A DNA stretch of 64,000 nucleotides. Origin: Halolamina sp. CBA1230 (lineage in GTDB: Archaea > Halobacteriota > Halobacteria > Halobacteriales > Haloferacaceae). The stretch is taken from positions 1,426,001-1,490,000 of the forward strand of contig NZ_CP054587.1 in NCBI RefSeq assembly GCF_002025255.2. Direction: 5' to 3'. The position numbers were made by a program, and so were the translations under genes. Position 1 is the stretch's first letter. The number at the start of each line of letters is the position of its first letter. The notes under the pieces were generated by a model. The model made no database searches. It saw nothing but the letters and a program-made list of their open reading frames with translations, and was not told the DNA's origin. Positions 27,095 through 58,389 of this stretch are shown in pieces.

Positions 27095-27667
27095 ATGTCC
27101 GACAAACAGTTCACGTTCTTCGAGTTCCACTTCCACGACGGCTTCCAGCTCGGCCCGCGCAGCCTGGGTGACGCGACAGAACTGGACGAGGCGACCGACG
27201 ACTCGCAGACGACGGACACGTCGACGGCCGAGACGATCGAGGAGTCGAGCGACGACTCCGGTCCGGGCGTGCTCGGTCCGCTGCTCGGGCTCGGCGCCCT
27301 CGCCGGCCTCGCCTACGCCGTCCGGAAGCTGCTCGACGGGGTCGAGCCGGAGGGGTTCGACGCGCTGGACGACATCGATGGGGAGGTCGAGGACGGCACG
27401 GACGACGTCGAGGAGGAGTTCGGGGGCAGCACGGACGACGTCGAGGAGGAGTTCGGGGGCAGCACGGACGACGTCGAGGAGGAGTTCGGGGGCAGCACGG
27501 ACGACCCCGAGGAGGACTCCGTCCCGATCGAGATCACCAGTCCCGAGGAGGAGACGGACGGCGGCCTCGCCGCCCTTCTCGCCGGCGCTGCCGTGCTGCT
27601 GCTCCTGTTCGCGCTGGCCGTGAAGAAGCTGCTGAGCGGGAGCGAGGAGATCGTCGTCGAGGACTGA
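27095..27667 (+). CDS. Acidic two-helix membrane protein with 11-residue repeats
   Basis: A 190-residue protein. A short cytoplasmic or surface head (SDKQFTFFEFHFHDGFQLG) leads to a first membrane helix (LGPLLGLGALAGLAYAV), an acidic loop, and a second helix near the end (LLAGAAVLLLLFALAVKKLL). The loop holds three perfect copies of DDVEEEFGGST encoded by a 33-base tandem repeat at 27401-27499. The loop is probably disordered and highly negative. Function is unknown. ATG 27095 is chosen because the upstream open frame spans the neighbour gene. Confidence 0.75.
   Translation: MSDKQFTFFEFHFHDGFQLGPRSLGDATELDEATDDSQTTDTSTAETIEESSDDSGPGVLGPLLGLGALAGLAYAVRKLLDGVEPEGFDALDDIDGEVEDGTDDVEEEFGGSTDDVEEEFGGSTDDVEEEFGGSTDDPEEDSVPIEITSPEEETDGGLAALLAGAAVLLLLFALAVKKLLSGSEEIVVED
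27401..27499 (+). repeat. Three perfect 33-base tandem repeats inside a gene
   Basis: Three identical 33-base units encode DDVEEEFGGST three times. A further six bases (GACGAC) of a fourth unit follow. Perfect identity at the DNA level, including synonymous positions, points to recent expansion by slippage or unequal recombination. Confidence 0.95.
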
Positions 27668-46813: not shown

Positions 46814-46871
46814 CGACTGCGACCGACAGGGTTCCACCACCCGGAGGTGGTTTTCGTGACGGTCGCAGTCG
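46814..46871 (+). promoter_or_regulatory. Inverted repeat bracketing the purQ ribosome site and start codon
   Basis: Arms CGACTGCGACCG (46814-46825) and CGGTCGCAGTCG (46860-46871) are perfect 12-base complements with a 34-base loop. The loop contains the Shine-Dalgarno-like GGAGGTG (46843-46849) and the GTG start (46856). Inside it, CCACC (46834-46838) can pair with GGTGG (46846-46850), covering part of the ribosome site. The downstream arm lies in the first codons of purQ. Confidence 0.6.
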
Positions 46872-47533
46872 TCCAGTTCGGCGGCTCGAACTGCGACCGC
46901 GACGCAGTGCGGGCGCTCGACCGCGTCGGCATCGACGCCGAGCGTGTCTGGCACGAGGACGGCCTCCCAACGGGGACGGAGGGAGTCGTCCTCCCCGGCG
47001 GGTTCTCCTACGGCGACTACCTCCGGGCGGGCGCGATGGCCGCCCACTCGCCGATCATGAACGAGGTTCGCGCGGCCGCGGCGGACGGGACGCCCGTGCT
47101 CGGTGTCTGTAACGGTGCCCAGATCGGCAGCGAGAGCCGGCTCACCCCGGGGGCGTTCACCACGAACCGCAGCGCGCGCTTCCAGTGTGAGGACGTGTTC
47201 CTTCGCGTCGAGAACGCCGAGACGCTCTGGACTGCGGCGTACGACGAGGGCGAGGTGATCGAACTCCCGATCGCTCACGGCGAGGGGCGGTTCGAGATCG
47301 ACGACGCGGCGTACGAGGAACTGGTCGAGGAGGACCGCGTGCTGTTCCGCTACTGCGACGCCGACGGCGAGGTGACCGACGAGGCGAACCCCAACGGCTC
47401 GAAGGGGAACGTCGCGGGCGTGCTGGGCGAGCGCGAGAACGTGGCCGTGTTGATGCCGCATCCGGAGCGGGCTTCGTTGGCGGAGTTGGGCGGGAGTACG
47501 GACGGGCAGGGCGTTCTGGAGGGGCTGGCGTAG
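46856..47533 (+). CDS. purQ: Phosphoribosylformylglycinamidine synthase subunit PurQ
   Basis: A 225-residue class I glutamine amidotransferase that feeds ammonia to PurL. It has VAVVQFGGSNCDRDAVRALD at the start, LPGGFSYGDYLRAGAMAA, the nucleophile cysteine in VLGVCNGAQIG and the C-terminal His-x-Glu in LMPHPERASL. The GTG 46856 start is fixed by an unusually good ribosome site GGAGGTG six bases before it. purS lies just upstream; purL is not in the window. Confidence 0.94.
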   Translation: MTVAVVQFGGSNCDRDAVRALDRVGIDAERVWHEDGLPTGTEGVVLPGGFSYGDYLRAGAMAAHSPIMNEVRAAAADGTPVLGVCNGAQIGSESRLTPGAFTTNRSARFQCEDVFLRVENAETLWTAAYDEGEVIELPIAHGEGRFEIDDAAYEELVEEDRVLFRYCDADGEVTDEANPNGSKGNVAGVLGERENVAVLMPHPERASLAELGGSTDGQGVLEGLA

Positions 47534-47562: not shown

Positions 47563-47604
47563 CGACGACCCGGGGTTATCGACGACTCGAACAGCAACAG
47601 TAGC

Positions 47605-48067
47605 AGCATCTCGGTACTCCATGACGGCTGCGACCGCAACAGCATCTCGGTACTCCATGACGGCTGCGACCGCAACAGCATCTCGAAGCATGACCACTTG
47701 TACCGCAACCGCGACCGCACAGCGATGGTCTTCCCCGCATCCTCGCGGGTCACTCCGTTCCCCGCTCGGTTTTCCGCGGCCTCCCGTCGGTCGGCCGCGC
47801 CATCCTCCCCACGGGCTCGCCGACCGTTGGCGAGCCCTCGCGTCCACCGCGACCGCACCGCCACGACTGTCGGCGCGAAACGCGAGCGGCGACGGCCGCG
47901 AGCCAGCGCGAGGGACGAACGAGCGAACGGACGTGAGCGAGAGAGTCGGCTGGGGAGGTGTATGGGCTGTGCGGGGCGGTGCGGTCACAAGTGGTCTACG
48001 ATCGAGATGCTGTTCGCGGTCACAGTCTCGATGATCAGCGTGTTGCTGTCCGCGGTCGCCGTCTCAA
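47605..48067. repeat. Near-palindromic non-coding element with inverted 36-base repeat arrays
   Basis: The left arm is a tandem array of a 36-base unit (AGCATCTCGGTACTCCATGA and onward): two perfect copies at 47605-47640 and 47641-47676, then a partial third from 47677. The right arm holds degenerate copies in the opposite orientation, also with a 36-base period (GCTGTTCGCGGTC at 48009 and GCTGTCCGCGGTC at 48045). Matching inner pairs are AGCATCTCGA/TCGAGATGCT (47677/48002) and GACCACTTGT/ACAAGTGGTC (47692/47987), and both pairs share a symmetry centre at 47844. No credible protein gene or transposase is present. The element lies between convergent purQ and RaSEA genes. Confidence 0.75.
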
Positions 48068-48115: not shown

Positions 48116-49195
48116 CTACCGAGCTAACGGCATGTTGAACGACTGCTCCTCCTCCAGCACCAGCTCCCACGTGAACTCACACTCACACTCGACCTGCTCG
48201 AACACCGAGGGGTCCTGCCGCAGGTCGAAGTCCTTGATCGCGCGCTGCACGCGGTCGTCGCACTCGCCACAGTTGTGCGGGCCGCGATCCGACCCGTGGC
48301 CGACGGGGTCCGACACCACGATCGCGTCGACGTCCGTCGTCGTCCGCAGCACCTCCGCGACCGACCAGAGCCACGGCGGCCGGTAGCCGCCCTCGTAGAA
48401 CAGCTCGTCCACCATCGTGTAGCGCTGGACGTTACAGGGGTTCATCGAGACGGTGTGACAGCCATCGACCGCGCCACAGCGCCGGACGCTGGACTGCATG
48501 TCCTCCAGCGCCTCCTTCTCCGAGAGGAACGGCGGCTTCATCAGCAGGTACGCCTTCACGCCGGCGTCGCCCGCCCGCGCCTCCACGCAGGCGTCCTCGA
48601 ACGCCGCGAAGTCGAAGTACTTGTTCACGCAGTCGTGGCGCACGCGGTCGGTCGCAGTCTCCAGCCCCACCGCGACGTCCGTCTCGATGCCGCGGTCCGT
48701 GAACTCCCGGACCTTCTCGCGGTCGACGAAGTCCGGCAGCGACTCGACGACGATCCGGTCCCGATCCGCGAACGTATCGGCGATCGCCTGCCGCGTCTCG
48801 GCGGGCACCTCGCGCTCGTCGAGGAACGAGCCGGAGGTGTAGATCTTGATCAGCCCCGACTCGTCGTCGGCCTCCTCGGCCTCGTGGTCGAGACAGTGCT
48901 GGATCTGCTCCATCAGCGCGTCGTGGCTCACGCTGCCGCCCTCGACGGACTCGGCGACGTAGCCACACATCGTACACCCCCCCGCCCGCGCCCAGCGACA
49001 GCCGCCGGTGTTGAGGATGATCGTCAGGCTCTGGTACACCCCGTCAGGGGTGTTGTCCTCGTCGATCCACACCCGGGTGGGCTCGCGGGGGTCGTAGCTC
49101 TGGTCGTTCTCCGCGCGGATGTCGCGCATGGCCTGGTTGTGCGCGTCCATCCCCCGCCCGCGCTCGTACACTTCGGGCGTCGGCTCGCTGCTCAT
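48116..49195 (-). CDS. raSEA: Archaeosine biosynthesis radical SAM protein RaSEA
   Basis: A 359-residue radical SAM enzyme of the TIGR01210 family. The cluster cysteines are in GGCRWARAGGCTMCGYVAE (C-x7-C-x2-C), and VGLETATDRVRHDCVNKYFD and KAYLLMKPPFLSEKEALEDM are typical. The C-terminal region has further cysteines (HNCGECDDR). RaSEA works with ArcS to turn the lysine adduct of preQ0 at tRNA position 15 into archaeosine. The start is ATG 49195, giving a normal length; the open frame further upstream is not supported. Confidence 0.9.
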   Translation of the reverse strand: MSSEPTPEVYERGRGMDAHNQAMRDIRAENDQSYDPREPTRVWIDEDNTPDGVYQSLTIILNTGGCRWARAGGCTMCGYVAESVEGGSVSHDALMEQIQHCLDHEAEEADDESGLIKIYTSGSFLDEREVPAETRQAIADTFADRDRIVVESLPDFVDREKVREFTDRGIETDVAVGLETATDRVRHDCVNKYFDFAAFEDACVEARAGDAGVKAYLLMKPPFLSEKEALEDMQSSVRRCGAVDGCHTVSMNPCNVQRYTMVDELFYEGGYRPPWLWSVAEVLRTTTDVDAIVVSDPVGHGSDRGPHNCGECDDRVQRAIKDFDLRQDPSVFEQVECECEFTWELVLEEEQSFNMPLAR

Positions 49196-49239
49196 GGCCT
49201 GGCTCCGCCGGGCACGCGGAAAACGGCTTCGACGCGGCG

Positions 49240-49620
49240 TTACTCCTCGGCTTCGACGGCGGCGATACCGGGGGGCCGCCCGAGAACCCACCATCCCACG
49301 GCGCCCAACACGGCACCGACGGCGTCGGCGACCAAATCGAGGACGGAGATCCCCCGCCCCGGAACGAACCCCTGCAGGAGCTCCACGACGCCGCCGAAGG
49401 CGGTCACGACGACCACGACGGCGATCACGCTCCGGGCGGTTCGGGCACGCAGCGCGACCAGCGCGGCGACGGCGAGCACCGCGTAGCCGGCGACGTGGAG
49501 GAGTTTGTCGACGCCGACGGGGCCGACGGTGCCGCCACCCGCGCCCGCACTGCCCGGGACGAGCGAGGCGGCGAGAACGGCGACCCCGACGGCAACCGGG
49601 AGCCAGCGACGAGCGTCCAT
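49240..49620 (-). CDS. VanZ-like membrane protein
   Basis: A 126-residue protein with four hydrophobic helices. The VanZ features are VDKLLHVAGYAVLAVAALVA (with D-K-x-x-H) and VVELLQGFVPGRGISVLDLV, where Q-x-x-x-x-R-x-x-S-x-x-D-x-x-x-N/D is the family core. VanZ proteins in bacteria affect lipoglycopeptide sensitivity, but the archaeal role is unknown. ATG 49620 gives MDARRWLPVAVGV. It is 44 bases upstream of RaSEA on the same strand, so the two may be co-transcribed. Confidence 0.87.
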   Translation of the reverse strand: MDARRWLPVAVGVAVLAASLVPGSAGAGGGTVGPVGVDKLLHVAGYAVLAVAALVALRARTARSVIAVVVVVTAFGGVVELLQGFVPGRGISVLDLVADAVGAVLGAVGWWVLGRPPGIAAVEAEE

Positions 49621-49714
49621 ACCCGTGGGTGGAACGACGGGTCCAAAGCCGTTGTGCGACCGGGCTGTCGACGCTGGGGGTGGATTTATCTCGTCCGGCG
49701 CGGAACACCCGTCC

Positions 49715-57387: not shown

Positions 57388-58389
57388 TCAGTCGTCGTTC
57401 TCATCCTCGTCGTCATCGTCCTCGTCGTCTTCTTCGTCGTCGTCATCGTCCTCGTCGTCTTCTTCGTCGTCGTCATCGTCCTCGTCATCGTCGTTCACGG
57501 GCGCGTCACCGGAATTCCCCGGTGCGTCACCGGAGTTGCCCGGTGCGTCGTCGCTGTCGTCGGATTCGTCGTCATCGTCGTGGCCGGGCGCGTCGCCGGA
57601 GTTACCCGGAGCGTCACCGGAGTTGCCCGGCGCGTCGTCGTTCCCGTTGTCCAGGCTCTCCTGGATCAGCTGGCCGAGGTTCCCCTCGCGGTCGCCGTCG
57701 AGCCAGCTCTGGACCACGCTGAAGACGTTCTTCGCTCGGTCGGAGGCGTTCTCGTCGGGGCCGGCCTCGTCGTCATCGTCCTCGCGGACGAGTTCGCCGT
57801 CCTCGATCTCGTACTCCAGTTCGAGCTCCTTCTCACCGGACTCGATCTCGATCTCGAGCTCCTCGCTCGCGTTCGTCTCGAACGTCAGGCTGCCGTTCGC
57901 GTCGGTCGTGCCCACGTCCTCGCCGTTGGCTGCGACCGACGCGTTCTCGACGGCGCTGCCGTTCTGCGTGACCGTCAGCTCGACCGTGCCGTTGTCGTAG
58001 GTCACGTCCGCGTCGAGCGCGTGCTCGTCTTCGTCGTCGGCGTCGTCGTCAGCCTCACGGACGAGTTCGCCGTCCTCGATCTCGTACTCGACCTCGTGTT
58101 CGAACTCGTCACCCTCCAGTTCGATCTCGAGCTCCTCGCTCGCGTTCGTCTCGAACGTGAGCGTGCCGTTCGCATCAGTCGTGCCCACGTCCTCGTCGTT
58201 GGCCTCGACCGAGAGGTTCTCGACGCCGGTCCCGTTCTCTGTGACGGTGAGCGTCACCGCCCCGTCGTCGTAGGACGCGTCGACGGTCGTCCCGGCGCTC
58301 GTGTCGTCAGTCTGAGCCGTGACCGCCCCCGCCCCCACGGAGACGACCAGTGCGGCCACCAGTACTGTGAGTAGATTTCGTGTGTTCAC
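57388..58389 (-). CDS. Secreted acidic repeat protein
   Basis: A 333-residue exported protein. A Sec-type signal (NTRNLLTVLVAALVVSVGAG ending near AVTAQ) is followed by two similar domains of about 75-80 residues that each contain VGTTDANG(T/S)LTFETNAS and end EYEIEDGELVRE. They look like carboxypeptidase-regulatory beta-sandwiches. A linker (SVVQSWLDGDREGNLGQLIQ) leads to repeated DAPGNSG units and a long Asp/Glu tail. GTG 58389 is preferred because it starts right at the signal; GTG 58404 is five codons upstream. No lipobox or sortase-like anchor is seen. Confidence 0.8.
   Translation of the reverse strand: MNTRNLLTVLVAALVVSVGAGAVTAQTDDTSAGTTVDASYDDGAVTLTVTENGTGVENLSVEANDEDVGTTDANGTLTFETNASEELEIELEGDEFEHEVEYEIEDGELVREADDDADDEDEHALDADVTYDNGTVELTVTQNGSAVENASVAANGEDVGTTDANGSLTFETNASEELEIEIESGEKELELEYEIEDGELVREDDDDEAGPDENASDRAKNVFSVVQSWLDGDREGNLGQLIQESLDNGNDDAPGNSGDAPGNSGDAPGHDDDDESDDSDDAPGNSGDAPGNSGDAPVNDDDEDDDDDEEDDEDDDDDEEDDEDDDDEDENDD

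Follow-up and report, generated by a model that had tools for sequence, protein, structure and literature searches.

Enterobacterial REP/BIME elements are high-copy, intergenic repeats that lie at the 3' ends of genes and are built from folded units. Among haloarchaea, Haloquadratum walsbyi carries SMRs, which are short and non-coding, have inverted ends unrelated to known transposons and are mobilised in an unexplained way (PMC3119063). One group, SMR-A, is ~80–110 bp long, highly uniform and inserts into IS605/PATE palindromes, and IS605-type elements are abundant in haloarchaea (PMC3119063). Haloferax terminates transcription at T stretches and, in some cases, at hairpins (PMC7237163).

The element analyzed here, from Halolamina sp. 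CBA1230, resembles several of these systems in part. As in REP/BIME, high-copy palindromic units occur in 3' gaps of genes; unlike REP/BIME, the element is larger, shows no RAYT/Y1 link, and has a G·A-zipper helix and an inverted, genus-specific casing. Like SMRs, it is non-coding with inverted ends unrelated to transposons, and the small contigs of its genome are element-free, as one large Haloquadratum plasmid is SMR-free (PMC3119063). Unlike the near-identical ~80–110 bp SMR-A copies with their IS605/PATE targets, the present family is ~250–460 bp (217–493 bp from arm to arm), mosaic, located in 3' gene gaps of the main contig and equipped with a folded core that is found across the order. 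It shares with haloarchaeal MITEs and PATEs (PMC3119063) a dispersed, transposase-free organization with palindromic parts, but no parent transposon was found among the arm pairs listed, the inverted ends are not order-wide, and there is no IS605 association as judged by the distribution of Y1 and TnpB. Finally, a covariation-supported, strand-specific structure with conserved unpaired positions is typical of structured ncRNAs in Rfam, whereas the core behaves as a dispersed repeat, and it matched none of the 4227 families of Rfam 15. Searches of the open-access literature likewise turned up nothing that matches this repeat. As far as the databases searched show, the family is undescribed.

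The window (the whole stretch of DNA analyzed, 64,000 nucleotides) contains one copy, with the following parts and neighbors:

46847..47533, plus strand: neighboring gene purQ (TIGR01737), outside the element
47594..48067, plus strand: whole element in canonical orientation (self-search of its own genome; arms and repeats)
47604..47685, plus strand: 36-bp unit CAGCATCTCGGTACTCCATGACGGCTGCGACCGCAA, 2.3 perfect copies, arm-related (TRF)
47676..47707, plus strand: left arm CAGCATCTCGAAGCAT-GACCACTTGTACCGCA (arm alignment)
47813..47837, no strand assigned: perfect hairpin ('B' position), lineage-specific, GGGCTCGCC-GACCGTT-GGCGAGCCC
47870..47971, plus strand: order-wide folded core (covariance model R1, 52.1 bits, E 2.9e-11)
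47909..47959, plus strand: most conserved stretch, CGAGGGAYGA-[GA-zipper helix]-GARTCGGYTGGGGAGG
47981..47996, minus strand: right arm, inner 16 nt identical to the family consensus GCGGTCACAAGTGGTC
47997..48067, minus strand: right outer arm and degenerate units with a 36-bp period, opposite orientation
48116..49708, minus strand: neighboring RaSEA ORF (TIGR01210), outside the element

An initial annotation, made from the letters of this stretch, had described a near-palindrome of 36-base tandem units and inverted arms centered at 47844, with units in opposite orientation on the right, and all of this was recovered. TRF reported an array with a 36-bp period (47604–47685, 2.3 copies, 100% matches), the unit CTGTYCGCGGTC occurs on the right at 48010 and 48046 (a spacing of 36 bp) in the orientation opposite to the left, and a long inverted pair, 47674–47712 and 47976–48014 (39 nt, 74%), shares the center at 47844. 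Scored without gaps, the best inverted match in the region reached 19, a value attained by none of 300 dinucleotide shuffles (mean 11, maximum 16). The convergent neighbors purQ (plus strand) and RaSEA (minus strand) were also correctly named; the RaSEA family match covers residues 213–527, so this protein probably begins downstream of where the ORF starts. Slippage, proposed as the origin of the repeats, is possible, but the 36-bp units are degenerate copies of the arm (score 15.5, compared with a maximum of 12 over 2000 shuffles). The window copy has a longer left module (305 bp from arm to arm) and an imperfect left arm, whose inner 16 nt differ at 5 positions from the family consensus GACCACTTGTGACCGC. 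Elsewhere in the window, long tandem arrays were seen at 57392–58281 and 27367–27516, with 15/30/87/273-bp and 33-bp periods; these arrays probably lie in coding sequence for acidic repeats.

Searches of its own genome placed the window copy in a large family. Covariance model R1 detected 90 copies in this genome, all 90 on the main contig C1 (probability 1.3e-7 if they were spread uniformly over the assembly), and the same search of the whole assembly found the small contigs C2–C4 free of the element. BLAST with the window copy gave 117 matches in its own genome, with C1 as the location of all matches listed, and the inner arm core CCACTTGTGACCGC occurred 119 times with at most one mismatch, compared with 3 occurrences of a reversed control. 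We aligned 39 further copies and their flanks with the window copy (n=40). A typical copy begins with a T-rich flank, 0–2 degenerate units of 36–45 bp and the arm CAGCATCTCGAAGCAT-GACCACTTGTGACCGC, continues through hairpin A, CCCCACCCCTCCCC, hairpin B and the core, and ends with the right arm, units in reverse and an A-rich flank. Copies are mosaic, mostly ~245 or ~305 bp from arm to arm, and almost all Halolamina copies have 16-nt near-perfect inverted arms. Because arm-to-arm lengths (e.g., 243, 244, 245, 246, 248, 251 and 252 bp) are not multiples of three, there is no conserved protein frame.

The casing of the element (inverted arms, hairpins and degenerate 36-bp units) is genus-specific, and the arm sequence is confined to Halolamina. 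Left and right arms of the same element were not matched to each other (permutation p 0.30 for outer and 0.09 for inner arms), and with no left–right coupling we rejected the idea that the arms are kept as a within-element stem. Selection on the arms as RNA was rejected as well, since G·U and A·C pairs were equally common (41:45); this absence of bias serves as an internal control for the core (below). Hairpins A and B contained 1045 Watson–Crick, 2 G·U and 4 A·C pairs. More than 30 different stem sequences were seen at these positions (e.g., 47813–47837), almost all perfectly Watson–Crick. Being nearly devoid of G·U, these hairpins look maintained at the DNA level, which suggests palindrome correction by template switching or conversion. 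Thus, the Halolamina casing behaves as a DNA symmetry, unlike the core.

The core is far more widespread. The pattern CGAGGGAYGA-N8-38-GARTCGGYTGGGGAGG was present in 105 of 293 sampled Halobacteriales genomes and 41 of 87 genera (among them Natrinema, Natronococcus, Haladaptatus, Halosimplex, Halorussus, Halococcus, Halogranum and Halolamina), with up to 83 copies per genome, whereas the reversed pattern, used as control, had zero matches among the 293. In a phylum-wide sample, matches of the R1 model were restricted to the same order. The initial annotation had regarded the same sequence lacking inverted symmetry in the orthologous gaps of many species as evidence against its reading; such a layout was not seen in Halolamina, where the congeners G004 and G003 have inverted arms in the purQ–RaSEA gap, but outside this genus the core occurs without inverted arms or palindrome. 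The most conserved part of the structure is located inside the palindrome and not in its arms. In some genomes two cores form inverted pairs 130–210 bp apart (loci L123, L140 and L167 in Haladaptatus; L124 and L162 in Natrinema), and in Natrinema an inverted repeat around CACGATAGCAGAACG lies between the two cores, an arrangement that resembles BIMEs.

RNAalifold analysis of 60 cores from many genera yielded two hairpins, P1 and P2, and a helix, P3, with double-sided changes at 14 of 21 pairs. Pairing was 93.4%, compared with 79.4% in shuffled controls and 14–48% with slid partners, and double-sided changes amounted to 157, against 40 in the control, counted as alignment cells and not as independent events. 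The compensatory changes on one strand thus exceed both shuffled and slid controls. P3 follows the pattern GAY-GA-NN-GA-NN-...-NN-GA-NN-GA-RTC, a regular alternation of 2-bp steps and tandem G·A. Of 195 distinct cores, 175 contain the GA/GA step (6 when shuffled), and the 2-bp steps flanking it pair in 173 (17 and 8 when shuffled). P3 is followed by an unpaired tail, GGYTGGGGAGG...GTGG, and the single-stranded positions of the core are conserved across the order. The window copy is somewhat degenerate in that its first P3 step (AC/GA) is unpaired and its P2 is poor. It is possible that the conserved tail GGYTGGGGAGGN(0-2)NGNGG (47948–47965 in the window) forms a two-tier G-quadruplex, favored by high intracellular K+, and that in Halolamina an upstream CCTCCCC could pair with this tail instead.

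If DNA symmetry alone maintained the core, G·U intermediates should be no more frequent than A·C ones, and no less so. Instead, G·U exceeded A·C by 59:7 in P3, 23:3 at P1 position 3 and 19:3 in P2 (P1 position 4 was excluded because the anchor fixed its 5' base), which indicates that one strand is the folded strand. This folded form is most likely RNA, although a folded single-stranded DNA would fit the one-strand tolerance of G·U too. One form that an RNA could take is that of a trans-acting ncRNA whose gene is present in many copies, each transcribed from a promoter of its own. Covariation and order-wide conservation of single-stranded positions suit this proposal, as do an orientation independent of neighboring genes and TATA-like runs upstream of Salinibaculum copies. 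However, average A+T upstream of the core rises just to 0.44 around -30 against a background of 0.36, copy number differs widely between related genomes, and element contents drift freely between sites (see below); we consider such a gene improbable.

For the 40 own copies, context was assigned with a trained 3-periodic gene finder, and doubtful neighbors were checked with Pfam because some loci had been misread. About 22 copies lie in convergent and about 16 in tandem gaps, with at most two in divergent gaps, whereas the background gaps of the window are 13 convergent, 30 tandem and 14 divergent. In other genera, 35 cores were in convergent, 49 in tandem (24 ++, 25 --) and 13 in divergent gaps, the orientation of the core was not fixed relative to its neighbors, and the sequence beside the core showed neither a promoter nor a terminator tract that recurred consistently. 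Nor did a sense orientation prevail, an unexpected picture if the core were a dedicated 3'-UTR RNA. Copies are thus biased to transcript ends, but a similar distribution, with few divergent gaps, would be expected of a neutral repeat kept out of promoters.

The initial annotation had suggested a two-way termination or insulation structure. Such an element would be under selection against collision of convergent transcripts and would fold on both strands or at the DNA level. Its location would fit: most own copies are convergent, divergent gaps are nearly avoided, T-rich left and A-rich right flanks are present even in tandem copies, and the T stretches and hairpins that terminate transcription in Haloferax (PMC7237163) make a role at transcript ends plausible. 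On the other hand, a strand-specific core cannot fold equally on both strands, about 16 own copies lie in tandem gaps, most convergent pairs elsewhere do without the element, and in the congener G005 the purQ–RaSEA gap is 17 bp and contains no element. A dedicated two-way device is thus unlikely, though of the alternatives to a family exchanged between fixed sites it is better placed than a trans-acting gene.

To compare sites between species, we paired elements of the window's genome with those of congeners G004 or G003 whose flanks were homologous on either side (n=19). At all 19 orthologous sites, including the purQ–RaSEA gap, the element was present in both species, and flanks were 78–93% identical. 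The elements themselves, however, were no more alike than random copies: over 15 pairs, the mean relative rank of the positional partner was 0.51 when core scores were compared and 0.49 when 12-mers in common were counted. Orientation was opposite at 5 of the 19 sites. In 10 of 30 flanks the unique sequence abutting the element was still homologous, which, at least in those cases, argues for sites of shared ancestry and not repeated insertion. Gain or loss also occurs, as indicated by a Natrinema site at which the core is present in N. zhouii alone and absent from 8 species with the same gene pair. The purQ–RaSEA gap is itself insertion-prone, since two congeners have 3–4 kb of extra DNA between these genes (G002 C1:165333-168628; G006 C16:20212-23896). 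Recombination between copies appears from these comparisons to be the only process with positive evidence, and we infer that exchange proceeds by gene conversion or homologous recombination.

These data also bear on the earlier suggestion of a mobile, MITE-like element, of which the high-copy dispersed family held up. A MITE would be a DNA transposon that is not autonomous and relies on a transposase from another locus to cut its inverted ends, and the short, non-coding, dispersed copies, their near-perfect arms in Halolamina and the single occupied Natrinema site are what it would predict. But the arms are limited to one genus while the core occurs elsewhere without them, the two arms of an element are not matched to each other, and contents rather than sites change between species. 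In addition, arm pairs listed were ~220–500 bp apart, with no transposase-sized gap enclosed by any of them that might represent an autonomous parent. With regard to target-site duplications, element ends are blurred by degenerate arm copies, and occupied and empty Natrinema sites are too diverged for the joint to be placed. A MITE thus seems quite improbable, somewhat more so than a trans-acting gene.

Other routes of movement fared no better. Reverse transcriptase (RVT_1) was detected in none of 37 genomes tested, with positive controls, and a retro-mobile RNA (SINE-like or group II) was rejected on this basis. Hairpin-recognizing single-strand transposases use strand-specific folds with tolerated mismatches, and the core fold would suit a single-stranded DNA element, REP/RAYT-like or derived from IS605/PATE, that depends on a Y1 transposase for its movement, as would the abundance of IS605-type elements in haloarchaea (PMC3119063). 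However, copy number does not track Y1 transposases, and many copies occur in genomes without a Y1 protein (G053, G056, G063, G172, G198 and G132), so the Y1/RAYT route was rejected; no associated RAYT gene emerged. In the window's genome (G000), 33 of 50 TnpB-type (PF07282) loci are on C2–C4, contigs that make up 16% of the assembly, whereas the element is on C1 only, and the IS605/PATE route was rejected too. Strand order along C1 was random (43 runs, expected 45.4 +/- 4.7), so no lagging-strand (replication-strand) bias is visible. We regard a Y1-moved origin as very improbable, the least probable of the alternatives considered. Phages had no match to the element, and matches in plasmids were confined to 4 haloarchaeal plasmids. 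Thus, none of the standard mobility routes is supported.

Taken together, the window element is probably, with a likelihood we put at roughly 0.55, a copy of a dispersed non-coding family that combines an old folded core acting as RNA, a genus-specific casing and exchange between copies at fixed sites. The inner ~100 nt would be an old, strand-specifically folded Halobacteriales module consisting of the P1 and P2 hairpins, the P3 helix and the unpaired tail, which in Halolamina is wrapped in inverted arms and perfect hairpins together with the 36-bp units, themselves degenerate copies of the arm. When the gap is transcribed, the module would act as a folded RNA, for which a structure concerned with 3' ends, read-through or stability is the most likely role, and homologous recombination or gene conversion through shared arms and core may overwrite and invert the contents of fixed sites. 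A more specific version is tentative and clearly less probable: a selfish or domesticated folded cassette, neither a MITE nor dependent on IS605 or reverse transcriptase functions, might be continually exchanged and inverted between ancestral sites, with a core RNA that, by its helix of 2 bp plus tandem G·A, would constitute a new family functioning at transcript ends.

For genome reading, these results are a caution that such palindromes represent a repeat family and not one-off structures. With its contrast between sites and contents, Halolamina provides a natural setting in which gene conversion and inversion between loci of polyploid archaea can be measured. An element that occurs at high copy number across the order, folds on one specific strand and is absent from Rfam would represent a new archaeal RNA (or single-stranded DNA) family, and its presence in cultivable genera such as Natrinema, Haladaptatus and Halorussus makes it testable.
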